A DNA stretch of 61,983 nucleotides, from positions 1 to 61,983 of the forward strand of contig VGWD01000012.1 in assembly GCA_016873735.1 (NCBI GenBank). The letters are read 5' to 3'. A program made the position numbers and the translations under genes. This DNA is from Ignavibacteria bacterium. Lineage in GTDB: Bacteria > Bacteroidota > Ignavibacteria > Kapaibacteriales > UBA961. Shown in pieces: positions 43,487 through 49,010 of the stretch; position 1 is the first letter of the stretch, and every line of letters starts with the position of its first letter. The notes under the pieces were generated by a model, which was given only the letters and a program-made list of their open reading frames with translations, made no database searches and was not told where the DNA came from.

Positions 43487-45625
43487 ATGTCCATGAAGCT
43501 ACTATGTACTTCAATTGCCTTGCTCTTATTCAATACACTTCTTTTTGGTCAAAGTCTGCCGAAAGAACCCATTCCGGGTGGTTTGAAATCTCATGATCAT
43601 GGTTTATCCAAGGAGATTGAAGCATTGCATCATCAAGTGCAAACAGACCCTTCATATCGACCGATACCAAAGATTAATAGAAAAAAATCACAAGAGCATG
43701 GTCTTGATGCAAAAGAAATGCCTGATACAACATGCAGAAGAATCATTCCTGTTGTGTTCCATGTATTTCATCCGAACGGTGCTGCTGGCGTTCCTCTTTC
43801 TCAATTGGAATTTGCAATTGAAGATTTGAATAGAACATTTGCAGGAACGGATGCTGATTTTGGAACTGTCAATGCTGTATTTGCAAATGACAAATCCTAT
43901 TCCAATATACGTTTTGCCTTGGCCAAGAGAGATCCTTTCGGGCAGCCAACAAATGGTGTGATGTACTATTCAGATCGCCAAGGCGGTTTTGGCAATATCG
44001 GACCCCAATGGGAAAATCAAATCAGAACATATGCTTGGGACAATTACAAATATTTCAATGTATATGTGCAACATGATTTATATGCAAATAACACATTTAA
44101 TAATTCAGGTGTTTGTTGGTATCCTTCAACATGGATGAGCGATAATGACATAGCTCGAATGGTGTATAATTATGTGTATTTGGGCAAAGGTGGATCATCA
44201 TATAATTATCTGGAATTCAATCAAACATTTACCCATGAAGCCGGACATTATCTTGATCTTCGCCATACATTCGAAGGAAATTCTTGTACAGGCCAGGGCG
44301 ATATGTGTGATGATACACCGCCAACGGATATTGCAGCCGCGGGATGCGATGCCACACGTTGCAATGGCATCATCAATGGTGAGAATTATATGGATTATAA
44401 TACCACATGTTATAAGAATTTCACCATTGATCAGGTATCCCGAATGGATGTAGCGATGAAACATCCTGCCAGAAGTACGCTTTGGTCTCCATACAATCTT
44501 GTGTCGACCGGTTTGCTTTCACCAACAGCGAATGATACATGCTTTGATTCACCATATATTTCATATTCAACACAGCATCTCAAAGAATCCTCACTCAATG
44601 ATGGCAGCATTGCCAATGCCTCCATCATCATTCATGCAAGCAATGGTGCGCGATTTGGAATGAAAGGACAAACACTTGTTTCAGGTGAACATTATTCTCC
44701 GATTGAATTGCCAAATGGATTGAAAGAAGAGATCATGGTTTCTGAAGATGGAAGTTTTGCAACATTGAACATTACAGGGAAAGCAATGAGGCATGGATCA
44801 AATGATTCAAAAAATGCATTGCCACTTACCTTGTTTGAAGAAGCATTTTCAGAAGGTACATCAAAGGCAATCTTGAATTTATCTACGCTTATTCGCATTG
44901 AATTCAAAGATACTTGGAAAAAAACGTGCGTTGACACTTATGTGCGTGCAAGTGCCGACACAATCTGGAATATATTTGAATTACAAGGTCCATATCCACG
45001 ATTTTATGGTATGTGGAAGAATAATAATGTCTATGCGATTGAGAACTATGGACGTGGTTTCATTACCGAATCCGCTAATAGTTCAAAAGCTGTGTTTCTT
45101 AAACCCGGCATAGTCATTGGACCTCAAAGTGTATGGAATCAAGGGGGTGCACCTATCGTTTTGAATAGTCCTGATCATCAGGTTTTGGATGGTAAAACAG
45201 GATATGTCGGCTTCAGAATTCAAGTTGCTGACGCATTTCATTATGGGTGGATGCGCATCGCTGTTTCATCCACCACCGGTTGTACCCTTCTGGAGTATCA
45301 ATACAATGAAAAACCAAATGAAGGTATCGCAGCAGGAGCTGATTGTTCTGTGGCTTTGCCCGTGGAAGATGCACATGTATCAGAACCATTTGTGATCAAA
45401 CCAAATCCAACCCAGGATAAAGTGATGATTGATTTAGGTTCTTATGCTTTCAGAAAAGGGAAACTAACTCTTTCTGCAATGAATGGAATGGTTTTATCAA
45501 GCATGGCCATCACCCAATCACTTCAGGAATATTCATTGAAAGAACTTGCTTCTGGTGTATACATAATCTCTTTTTTGGACGAATCAGGGACATTGATACA
45601 TTCACAAGCTATCATCAAACAATAA
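43487..45625 (+). CDS. Secreted M43-type zinc metalloprotease with T9SS domain
   Basis: 712 residues from the ATG at 43487; the frame is open upstream over the opposite alkB but without a signal peptide. The signal peptide is 'MSMKLLCTSIALLLFNTLLF' then GQ. The protease domain (about 80-330) contains the extended zinc site HEAGHYLDLRH at 250-260, with Asp at the usual metzincin Gly position, and the Met-turn 'ENYMDYNTTC'. The cysteines 'NSCTGQGDMCDDTPPT' follow. The C-terminus has a beta domain and a T9SS sorting domain ('ELASGVYIISFLDESG'). The protease is therefore extracellular. It is followed 15 bp later by a Rieske gene. Confidence 0.92.
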   Translation: MSMKLLCTSIALLLFNTLLFGQSLPKEPIPGGLKSHDHGLSKEIEALHHQVQTDPSYRPIPKINRKKSQEHGLDAKEMPDTTCRRIIPVVFHVFHPNGAAGVPLSQLEFAIEDLNRTFAGTDADFGTVNAVFANDKSYSNIRFALAKRDPFGQPTNGVMYYSDRQGGFGNIGPQWENQIRTYAWDNYKYFNVYVQHDLYANNTFNNSGVCWYPSTWMSDNDIARMVYNYVYLGKGGSSYNYLEFNQTFTHEAGHYLDLRHTFEGNSCTGQGDMCDDTPPTDIAAAGCDATRCNGIINGENYMDYNTTCYKNFTIDQVSRMDVAMKHPARSTLWSPYNLVSTGLLSPTANDTCFDSPYISYSTQHLKESSLNDGSIANASIIIHASNGARFGMKGQTLVSGEHYSPIELPNGLKEEIMVSEDGSFATLNITGKAMRHGSNDSKNALPLTLFEEAFSEGTSKAILNLSTLIRIEFKDTWKKTCVDTYVRASADTIWNIFELQGPYPRFYGMWKNNNVYAIENYGRGFITESANSSKAVFLKPGIVIGPQSVWNQGGAPIVLNSPDHQVLDGKTGYVGFRIQVADAFHYGWMRIAVSSTTGCTLLEYQYNEKPNEGIAAGADCSVALPVEDAHVSEPFVIKPNPTQDKVMIDLGSYAFRKGKLTLSAMNGMVLSSMAITQSLQEYSLKELASGVYIISFLDESGTLIHSQAIIKQ

Positions 45626-45630
45626 TGTAT

Positions 45631-45670
45631 TAAGAATACTATGAGTAAGAATACTATGAGTAAGAATACA
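45631..45670 (+). repeat. 15-bp tandem duplication across the start codon of the Rieske gene
   Basis: TAAGAATACTATGAG occurs at 45631-45645 and 45646-45660, with a third partial copy from 45661. Each full copy holds an ATG in the same frame, giving 'MSKNTMSKNT'. Loss or gain of a unit would change the protein by exactly five residues. Confidence 0.8.
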
Positions 45671-46135
45671 ATATCAGGAATCAATCGCAGACAATTCATA
45701 CGTACTATGGGTGTATTGCCAATTGTGTCAGGAGCAGTAGTCATGAGCATGTGCTCGGCAGGATGTTCCGAAGATGCAACATCACCATTGACAGGTGAAA
45801 AAGTCACATTGCAACTTGCAAATGAAACTACATTGCAAAATGTTGGAGGTTATATCACGAGAACATTCGGTGCGAACATGAATGCAAATAGGCCTATTAT
45901 TGTGATACGTACTACTCAGGACAAATTCAGAGCGATGTCAACATATTGTCCGCATGCAGGAGGAACCATTGGAATATCATCTTCAACCAAGGCCATATGC
46001 CCAAACCATGGAGCAATGTTTGGCTTGAGCGAGGGTAATTTTGCGCAAAATGTAGGTGGACAAAGTACTACTGCTGCTCAGACATTTGTAGTGACATATA
46101 ATCAAAGTGCTAATAGCATCACCATCGCATTTTGA
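45641..46135 (+). CDS. Rieske [2Fe-2S] lipoprotein, Tat-type signal
   Basis: 164 residues (or 159 from the second ATG at 45656). The N-terminus is a twin-arginine signal, 'NRRQFIRTMGV', followed by a hydrophobic stretch and the lipobox 'CSAGC', so folded export and lipid anchoring are likely. The Rieske cluster ligands are complete: C103 and H105 in 'TYCPHAGG', C120 and H123 in 'ICPNHGAMFG'. It transfers one electron in the periplasm; no cytochrome b or dioxygenase partner is adjacent. Its stop overlaps the start of an adenylate cyclase gene (TGATG), so the two are coupled. Confidence 0.93.
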   Translation: MSKNTMSKNTISGINRRQFIRTMGVLPIVSGAVVMSMCSAGCSEDATSPLTGEKVTLQLANETTLQNVGGYITRTFGANMNANRPIIVIRTTQDKFRAMSTYCPHAGGTIGISSSTKAICPNHGAMFGLSEGNFAQNVGGQSTTAAQTFVVTYNQSANSITIAF

Positions 46136-48369
46136 TGATCAAAACTCAATCACATAGTGCCGCCAATCCTGAAATCGAAGCATTGCAATCAATGCTGGAT
46201 ATGGGTCATTATGATAAGTTGGAACAGGAGTGCATAAACATTCTAGAGTCTACCACACAGCATTCACATGAATTTCTTGCGACCATGCATCTTTTTTTAT
46301 CTCAATCTTATTGGAGAAGGGGAAATAAAAACAAGGGAGAAATCTTTTCTGCAATAGCATTGAAAATGCTGCAAGAACATGGGTCTTCTTGGAGTAAAAC
46401 ATTAATCTCCCAAATATATGGTAATGCCGGCGTGCTTCACATGCAAGTTGGCATGTTTGAGAAAGCGCGTGAATACATCAAGTTGGCACTAGAATTATGC
46501 ATTGAAGACAAAGACTCAGATGGTATGTCGAAATATCTGATGAATCTTGGTGTGCTGCATTATTATATGGCTGAGTTTCAAGAGGCACTTAGTTATTATC
46601 AGCAAGGACTTGAGCTAGCGAATCAACTTGGCGATGAAAGAAGAATAGCAAGCTGTGAAACAAATATCGGTATGACATATGTGAGCATATCCGATTATGA
46701 GAATGCACTCATACACTATAAATTCGCACTGAAAAGAGAAGAGTCTTTGGGGAATGCAATCAACATTGCAAACTTGCTTGGCAATATGGGGGTTGTGTAC
46801 AGCAATCTTGGAAAATACACCAAAGCACTTGAATTTTATACCAAAGCGATGAATCTCGATGAGCAATTGGGAATCACAAAAAATTTGGCAAAGTATTATG
46901 GCAATATGGGAGTCGTCTATGGGTCGGTTTCCGATTTCCAAAAAGCATTGGAATGTTATCAACAAGCACTGAAAATCGAAGAAGAACAAGAGAATGTGAT
47001 CGGCGTCATTCGTCAATTGGGCAATATTGCAACAATCAATAAAGATCTTGGAGATTTTGATCAGGCACTCAAGTATAATGAACAAGCACTTGCATTGCTC
47101 CGAGAATATCATAATCCTGATCAAGAAATGATTATTGCAAAGAATCTCGGTGAAATTTATAGAGCCAATGGTGATGTGAAGAATGCATTGCATTATTTCA
47201 CGCTTCAAATGGACATGGCAAAAAAAATCGGGATAAGATCAGAAGTTGCATCTGCATATGGAAATCTTGGTCTGCTCTATGTTATCATTGAAGAATATTC
47301 CCAAGCCTTTGATCACTTTATTGAAGCAATATCAATCTCCAATGAACTTGGAATCAAAGCTGAGGAAGCAGGATGGAAATCTGCATTGGGCGATCTTTAT
47401 GGGAATCCTTCATTTGAACAATACAATACAACAATATCAGAGGAATTATTGAAGGAAGCTCTTTCCGTACACAATGAATTAGGACAAAAACGTGAAGAGT
47501 ATCGATCCCATCTTTCACTTTCACATCTCTATGAAACACTCGATCGAGTGCCCGAAGCATTTCATCATTTCAAGTTCTTTCATGGCTTGGAAAAAGAAGT
47601 ATTGAATGAGCAAGCAATGAAACAAGCAGTGGAACTCGAGCTGATTCGCAAAATCGAACAGATAGAGCGTAACAATAAAGAAGCGATGATTCGATTCGAA
47701 GAAAAAGAACGTATTCTTCATGATATCCTTCCGATTGAGATTGCAAATAGAATTGTTTCCGGAGAGACAATGATAGCAGAGCAGCATGATGATGTGAGTA
47801 TCATCTTTGCTGATATTGTTTCTTTCACTGAAACTGCATTGCTTCTGAAACCGGCCGAAGTTGTTGGAACATTGAATGATTTGTTCACAGAATTCGATTC
47901 AATTGCTCTCGAATTGGGCATAGAGAAGATAAAAACATTGGGTGATGCCTATATGGGAGCTTGCGGCATTCCAACTGCCAGGGAAGATCATGCCATACGA
48001 ATGGTTCAATTTGCCTTTCGTGTGATGGAGGCATCCAATAAGTATCGTTTTCCGGGTCAGGATACCATACGTATAAGGGTCGGGCTACATTGCGGACCCG
48101 TCATTGCAGGTGTGATTGGCGGACATAAATACACATATGATCTTTGGGGTGATTCCGTAAACACGGCATCAAGAATGGAATCGCAAGGTGAACGTGATCA
48201 AATTCATGTCAGTGAAGACTTCATAAGAACCATTTGCAATATATCAGCGGATATGGAAATCCCGAGTACACATGCACTACCTTTTGGTACGCTTGCCATT
48301 CATGATAGGGGTACCACAATGATCAAAGGCAGAGGCTCGATGCGGACATTCTTTGTAGCAGTGGTCTGA
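46135..48369 (+). CDS. TPR-containing class III adenylate cyclase
   Basis: 744 residues from the ATG at 46135; a TTG one codon earlier is ignored. Residues about 30-450 form some ten TPR units ('NLGVLHYYMAEFQEALSYYQ', 'NMGVVYSNLGKYTKALEFYT'). A coiled coil (about 490-545) leads into the CHD catalytic domain. Metal-binding aspartates are in 'IIFADIVSFTE' and 'TLGDAYMGACG', the purine-selecting Lys and Asp in 'EKIKTLGD' and 'YDLWGDSVN' (the adenylate, not guanylate, pair), and the transition-state Arg in 'NTASRME'. It has no TM segment and is likely cytoplasmic. It lies between two Rieske-type genes and is coupled to the first. Confidence 0.93.
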   Translation: MIKTQSHSAANPEIEALQSMLDMGHYDKLEQECINILESTTQHSHEFLATMHLFLSQSYWRRGNKNKGEIFSAIALKMLQEHGSSWSKTLISQIYGNAGVLHMQVGMFEKAREYIKLALELCIEDKDSDGMSKYLMNLGVLHYYMAEFQEALSYYQQGLELANQLGDERRIASCETNIGMTYVSISDYENALIHYKFALKREESLGNAINIANLLGNMGVVYSNLGKYTKALEFYTKAMNLDEQLGITKNLAKYYGNMGVVYGSVSDFQKALECYQQALKIEEEQENVIGVIRQLGNIATINKDLGDFDQALKYNEQALALLREYHNPDQEMIIAKNLGEIYRANGDVKNALHYFTLQMDMAKKIGIRSEVASAYGNLGLLYVIIEEYSQAFDHFIEAISISNELGIKAEEAGWKSALGDLYGNPSFEQYNTTISEELLKEALSVHNELGQKREEYRSHLSLSHLYETLDRVPEAFHHFKFFHGLEKEVLNEQAMKQAVELELIRKIEQIERNNKEAMIRFEEKERILHDILPIEIANRIVSGETMIAEQHDDVSIIFADIVSFTETALLLKPAEVVGTLNDLFTEFDSIALELGIEKIKTLGDAYMGACGIPTAREDHAIRMVQFAFRVMEASNKYRFPGQDTIRIRVGLHCGPVIAGVIGGHKYTYDLWGDSVNTASRMESQGERDQIHVSEDFIRTICNISADMEIPSTHALPFGTLAIHDRGTTMIKGRGSMRTFFVAVV

Positions 48370-48447
48370 CCAGCCACATATAAAGCAAATTTATGTTGGA
48401 ATTATATACTATTCTTGATATCTTCACATATCATTTTAAAACTATCA

Positions 48448-48960
48448 ATGGGTACATCAATGTCAGAGAAGAAACCACTTACGGATGCTCAAAGAAGAAT
48501 TGTGTTAAAAGCTCTTGGTATAGCTCCATTGGCTTCGGCAGGACTATTCATGAATTTATCGCTATCTAGTTGTTCCAATGATTCAACATCTCCAAGCGAT
48601 GGTTTGATTGAATTGAAGGTTGCCGATGAACCCGGCTTGGGAAATATTGATGGTTTTGTGAGAAGAACTTATGGATCTAACAATAATGGAGATCCAATCA
48701 TTATCATTAAAACCGAAGAAAACACCTATCGATGCATTGCAGTTGGATGCCCCAAAAATTGCGAAAAGAAATCACCTGCACCTGCATTAGGTAATCCCAA
48801 AAACAAAGAGATCATTTGTGAAACATGTCCTATGAAAGCCAAGTATTCAGTGGATGAGAAAAATTTTGGCAATGTAGTTGAAAGCGGTCCATCACAAACG
48901 CTCAGAGAATTTCCTGCAACATTCAATCCAACGACAGGAATATTGAAGATCAATTTTTGA
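48448..48960 (+). CDS. Rieske-like lipoprotein with histidine ligands replaced
   Basis: 170 residues from the ATG at 48448 (ATG at 48460 also possible). The N-terminus is Tat-like, 'QRRIVLKALGIAPLAS', with the lipobox 'LSLSSC'. The body aligns with the Rieske protein two genes upstream ('GFVRRTYGSNNNGDPIIIIK' against 'GYITRTFGANMNANRPIIVI'). The ligand loops differ: CPH becomes 'GCPKNC' (C101, K103, C105) and CPNH becomes 'ICETCPMK' (C124, C127). The two histidines are lost and two cysteines gained, leaving a four-cysteine set. It may bind a different Fe-S centre or zinc, or be inactive. It follows the cyclase by 78 bp and ends at a terminator. Confidence 0.83.
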   Translation: MGTSMSEKKPLTDAQRRIVLKALGIAPLASAGLFMNLSLSSCSNDSTSPSDGLIELKVADEPGLGNIDGFVRRTYGSNNNGDPIIIIKTEENTYRCIAVGCPKNCEKKSPAPALGNPKNKEIICETCPMKAKYSVDEKNFGNVVESGPSQTLREFPATFNPTTGILKINF

Positions 48961-48982: not shown

Positions 48983-49010
48983 AAAAGGCTTCCATTGGAA
49001 GCCTTTTGTA
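48983..49010 (+). terminator. Rho-independent terminator
   Basis: AAAAGGCTTCC (48983-48993) pairs with GGAAGCCTTTT (48997-49007) across a 3-nt loop. It ends the protease/Rieske/cyclase stretch and, having A-rich and T-rich flanks, could also serve the convergent peptidase gene. Confidence 0.85.

Follow-up and report, generated by a model that had tools for sequence, protein, structure and literature searches.

The cluster-binding loops of Rieske proteins resemble rubredoxin in geometry, and the closest precedents for a Rieske scaffold with altered ligands are engineered variants of the Sulfolobus ferredoxin ARF (PMC2946596). The ARF triple mutant H44I/K45C/H64C, with C-x2-C in each of the two loops of the Rieske scaffold, binds a mononuclear Fe(Cys)4 centre, whereas the single mutant H64C forms a low-potential 3Cys-1His [2Fe-2S] cluster, and the double mutant H44C/H64C (C-x-C and C-x2-C) largely fails to assemble a cluster (PMC2946596). 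Literature searches of a limited open library returned no natural all-cysteine Rieske proteins, and we could find such a swap described from laboratory engineering only.

The window analysed here covers positions 1 to 61,983 of a contig of an Ignavibacteria bacterium (VGWD01000012.1, assembly GCA_016873735.1), and it contains genes for a canonical Rieske lipoprotein, R1, and for a histidine-free relative, R2 (Table 1). R2 has its signal, lipobox, length, full-length alignment and both ligand cysteine positions in common with R1 and the other Tat-type Rieske lipoproteins of the phylum (PF00355), but it differs from them in its lack of histidine, the added cysteines C92, C101 and C123, longer loops, and a failure to be detected by Pfam. 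With the ARF triple mutant it shares the Rieske scaffold, two cysteines in each loop, the absence of histidine ligands, and the C-x2-C of loop 2; that mutant is, however, an engineered ferredoxin with C-x2-C in loop 1, whereas R2 is natural, has C-x3-C in loop 1, carries a Tat lipoprotein signal, insertions and a fifth cysteine, and would bind a metal that is putative. Respiratory (bc1/b6f) Rieske proteins with an inter-loop disulfide likewise have two cysteines per loop (C-x-H-x2-C and C-x-C-H), but they contain the two histidine ligands that are gone from R2, and their cysteine spacing differs by one residue in each loop. NirD-type proteins are Rieske homologues without the canonical ligand set and are similar to R2 in that respect; unlike them, R2 keeps and adds invariant loop cysteines. 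The two-knuckle Cys4 arrangement is also that of rubredoxin and the zinc ribbons, from which R2 departs in being Rieske-homologous, in having one C-x3-C knuckle, and in the putative status of its metal.

Table 1. Features of the R1-R2 locus (positions in the window).
Feature	Position	Strand	Evidence
M43-family secreted metallopeptidase, first gene of conserved block	43487..45625	+	Pfam Peptidase_M43 E=4.8e-42, Por_Secre_tail, synteny
R1, canonical Rieske Tat lipoprotein, CPH...CPNH, without disulfide Cys pair	45641..46135	+	Pfam PF00355 E=3.6e-7
TPR-class III adenylate cyclase between R1 and R2, catalytic residues present	46132..48369	+	Pfam Guanylate_cyc E=5e-53, TPRs, synteny
R2, Tat-type lipoprotein, Rieske-homologous domain, no His, five Cys after lipid Cys	48460..48960	+	ORF, R1 homology, six orthologues, dN/dS
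R2 twin-arginine segment RRIVLK, invariant	48493..48510	+	R2 orthologue alignment; TatC in 7/7 genomes of genus
R2 lipobox cysteine C38	48571..48573	+	Invariant in R2 orthologue and R1/R2 alignments
R2 fifth conserved cysteine C92	48733..48735	+	Invariant in six orthologues; codon TGC/TGT
R2 loop 1, CPKNCEKK (C97, C101)	48748..48771	+	Invariant; C97 aligns with R1 ligand Cys
R2 loop 2, IICETCPMKA (C120, C123)	48811..48840	+	Invariant; C120 aligns with R1 ligand Cys
Perfect inverted repeat AAAAGGCTTCC ATT GGAAGCCTTTT between R2 and convergent M42 peptidase gene	48983..49007	.	Read from sequence

The R2 open reading frame spans 48415-48960 from its first TTG, with ATG codons at 48448 and 48460. 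The latter (MSEKK...) is backed by the orthologues and is the more likely start, 48448 being also possible, and residue numbers are counted from it. The segment QRRIVLK and the SLS(S/G)C lipobox are invariant in all six R2 orthologues, and with TatC found in each of the seven genomes of the genus, R2 has the attributes of a Tat-exported lipoprotein, export being predicted. Beyond the lipid cysteine there are five others: C92, which lies five residues ahead of the first loop cysteine, C97 and C101 in the C-x3-C of loop 1, and C120 and C123 in the C-x2-C of loop 2. Neither a histidine anywhere in the protein nor the Rieske ligand motif C-x-H...C-x2-H (two cysteines, two histidines) is present in any of the six orthologues, and a protein without histidine cannot hold the canonical His2Cys2 Rieske cluster.

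R1 overlaps the cyclase reading frame by 4 bp, and the window and two other genomes (G003 and G006) have the whole series of M43 peptidase, R1, cyclase and R2, with the convergently oriented M42 peptidase gene after it; in G001, G002 and G004 the contigs end inside the block, and the visible parts agree with this order. In the sister genera R1 has different neighbours, and searches there gave no R2. The inverted repeat downstream of R2 is a probable bidirectional terminator. The AT-rich gap between the cyclase and R2 genes (48369-48460) seems to have little conservation among the species, and R2 may have its own promoter. At the 5' end of R1 (45641-45670) the tandem repeat ATGAGTAAGAATACT (encoding MSKNTMSKNT) offers two possible start codons. 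The cyclase orthologues examined keep the class III catalytic segment, with the metal-binding Asp pair, the Lys and Asp for adenine, and the N..R residues; the link of R1 and R2 to cAMP is a genomic association only. TPR-adenylate cyclase matches at E<=1e-60 number 41 in G008 and 14 in G012, both of sister genera, compared to 2 to 5 in the genus of the window.

A preliminary description of R2 had aligned it with R1 along its length, with a change of the ligand loops from CPH...CPNH to CPKNC...CETC, and both statements are borne out. The two proteins are 28% identical over 166 aa (BLASTP; E=1e-25 for that single comparison), and hhalign pairs the R2 orthologue profile with one built from seven canonical relatives along 152 columns, with a probability of 99.8%, so that homology over the Rieske domain is present in R2 although it has no Pfam or NCBIfam match. 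The same description had both histidines gone and two cysteines appearing in the loops, and this is correct in that both histidines are lost (each of the four complete R1 proteins of the genus has exactly two, the ligands) and that additional cysteines stand in the loops; it is not a simple substitution, however, for alongside the loss of histidine loop 1 has gained six residues and loop 2 two, and C92 is a further invariant cysteine, the fifth. The two ligand cysteines of R1 are matched by C97 and C120. In the profile alignment, C101 and C123 face the cysteines that form the inter-loop disulfide in respiratory-type relatives, and K99 and M125 face the lost histidine positions. Whether C101 and C123 are replacements of the histidines or counterparts of the respiratory disulfide cysteines is thus ambiguous, and under either reading of the alignment all four cysteines sit in the two cluster loops. 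If three extra cysteines were placed randomly, the chance of one falling at +2, +3 or +4 from each aligned ligand cysteine would be 0.3%; a chance origin of the loop cysteines is untenable, since six species, with the gene under strong purifying selection, retain them without exception.

Seven genomes represent the genus, and R2 is present in six; the exception, G005 (85% complete), yielded neither R1 nor R2. Short peptide patterns, a probe that is sensitive to close relatives only, picked out five R2 loci in a collection of 84,980 prokaryote genomes, each of at least 63% identity. The preliminary description had left room for homologues in which the cysteines vary freely, but all five are invariant across the six species of this one Kapaibacteria-like genus, down to 64% identity, while each of their codons alternates between TGC and TGT. 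Pairwise dN/dS values for R2 lie between 0.017 and 0.18; in most pairs the synonymous sites are saturated or close to it. When the R2 of the window is compared with its most divergent orthologue (64% identity), the loops (residues 97-104 and 118-127) are identical at 18 of 18 positions, compared to 66 of 109 in the remainder of the mature protein (Fisher p=3e-4), and this full identity of loop residues, those other than cysteine included, points to a functional site. Matches in G001 and G006 appeared to contain a TAG codon inside R2, but both reading frames are intact on translation and the TAG lies just upstream of the start.

These data bear directly on the possibility that R2 is a decaying duplicate or an artefact of assembly or gene calling. 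The absence of a Pfam or NCBIfam match and the long R2 stem in the tree, of about 1.3 changes per site, could be read in that way, but the gene is intact in six species, R2 is more similar between species than R1 in identity for four of six genome pairs and roughly equals it for the remaining two, and we consider this explanation very improbable. Purifying selection, invariant cysteines with synonymous codon change, conserved gene order, and the retention of the twin-arginine motif and lipobox instead argue strongly for R2 as a selected paralogue, in keeping with the earlier view that it does not reflect simple decay.

The R2 proteins form a single clade (100/100) within the R1 group of the family. 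The trees do not fix where exactly it branches among the R1 proteins; a spurious reading frame included in the first tree (window_R_55) was ignored and is absent from the second. The length of the stem is as expected for a duplicate that would have changed fast and then frozen. About 70 distinct relatives read from scans of the order, class and phylum all have the canonical C-x-H and second Cys/His loop, and matches in G047 and G050 that at first looked non-canonical proved to have canonical loops. Two relatives (L058 and L060) have another unusual Rieske loop, with an insertion between the cysteine and histidine of loop 2 (CSFADNKCGH and CDQPGCGH). Canonical Tat Rieske lipoproteins of other families adjoin YceI-domain genes, and in genus g2 (G007 and G008) they are near an exported SelR/MsrB-like protein (loci L056, L070, L157 and L096, 1707-2213), hinting that the role of the Rieske lipoprotein family may concern lipid/quinone or oxidative repair.

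Structural models of R1 and R2 are of low confidence (AlphaFold2 pLDDT 56 for R1, and 52 with pTM 0.44 for R2), probably due to the alignments containing ten sequences only. Rieske proteins make up most of the top Foldseek and VIA matches of the low-confidence R2 model, but these matches are weak (E>=0.12, Z<=3.3); a nitrite reductase small subunit is among them; the VIA match list of the R1 model, also of low confidence, is not led by Rieske proteins. Sequence searches of the PDB gave no relevant match.

As to what the loop cysteines do, a 'four-cysteine ligand set', as proposed originally, is plausible, and we lean, if only slightly, to the interpretation that R2 is a neofunctionalised paralogue of R1 in which an all-cysteine metal site formed by C97, C101, C120 and C123 has taken the place of the His2Cys2 [2Fe-2S] site. 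We favour such a site, and a mononuclear Zn or Fe centre in it before a [2Fe-2S] cluster, because the C-x3-C and C-x2-C spacings avoid the failing C-x-C and most resemble the rubredoxin-like ARF design. Some features do not fit comfortably: the C-x3-C of loop 1 differs from the standard rubredoxin knuckle C-x2-C, the invariant C92 is not explained by a Cys4 model, and C101 and C123 align with the respiratory disulfide cysteines. The last of these suggests a different explanation, in which R2 is a cofactor-free Rieske fold whose former ligand cysteines and inter-loop pair form one or two disulfides, as a clamp or a thiol switch, for example in an adaptor of R1. The positions of K99 and M125 opposite the lost histidines agree with this, another Rieske lipoprotein of the same genome (L003) keeps a disulfide-type cysteine pair, R2 would, if exported, sit outside the cytoplasm, and Rieske-fold proteins without ligands, such as NirD, offer a precedent. 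We nonetheless think it rather unlikely: five cysteines are an odd number, the full invariance of the non-cysteine loop residues goes beyond the need of a clamp, and the nearest relatives, the R1 proteins of the same family, are without the disulfide cysteines. No match to DsbB or VKOR was found in the genus, although other routes to disulfides are possible, and the Tat-type signal is kept, although a protein that lacks a cofactor may also inherit such a signal.

A low-potential [2Fe-2S](Cys)4 cluster, in which each iron would be bound by one cysteine of loop 1 and one of loop 2 and R2 would be an electron carrier paired with R1, is one form of the all-cysteine site, and its probability, although assessed separately, is contained in that given above. 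The joint lengthening of the loops could let the shorter cysteine side chains reach the outer iron, the cluster of ARF H64C is a partial parallel (PMC2946596), and the retained Tat-type signal is compatible with it. The double His-to-Cys mutant of ARF is however largely without cluster and the rubredoxin-spaced triple mutant is mononuclear (PMC2946596), and R1 is the sole electron-transfer gene beside R2, the other neighbours being the cyclase and peptidases; such a cluster therefore appears to us improbable.

For the mononuclear all-cysteine site we envisage the following course. R2 would have arisen as a paralogue of the Tat-type Rieske lipoprotein R1 and then neofunctionalised, with C97 and C101 of loop 1 joining C120 and C123 of loop 2 around, most likely, a single Zn or Fe ion in the manner of rubredoxin or a zinc ribbon, a low-potential [2Fe-2S](Cys)4 cluster being second choice. 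Folded proteins are the cargo of the Tat system, so the cofactor could be loaded in the cytoplasm, after which the folded protein would be exported through Tat and lipid-anchored, and would partner R1 in a structural, redox or metal-responsive capacity. That the four cysteines share one metal, and which metal, that R2 is actually exported, and that it is a partner of R1, we infer from the comparisons above.

The ARF mutants gave the rule that ligand identity and spacing decide the metal centre that a Rieske scaffold accepts, and this rule derives from engineered proteins. We regard as evenly poised the proposition that R2 is a natural Rieske-fold protein with its His2Cys2 [2Fe-2S] cluster replaced by an all-cysteine metal centre, fixed in a genus and Tat-exported beside a canonical paralogue. 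R2 looks like a natural, selected instance of the rule, with R1, two genes away, as an internal control, and it could be used to test how a fold comes to take a different cofactor and whether, in nature, Rieske sites and rubredoxin/zinc-ribbon sites turn into one another.
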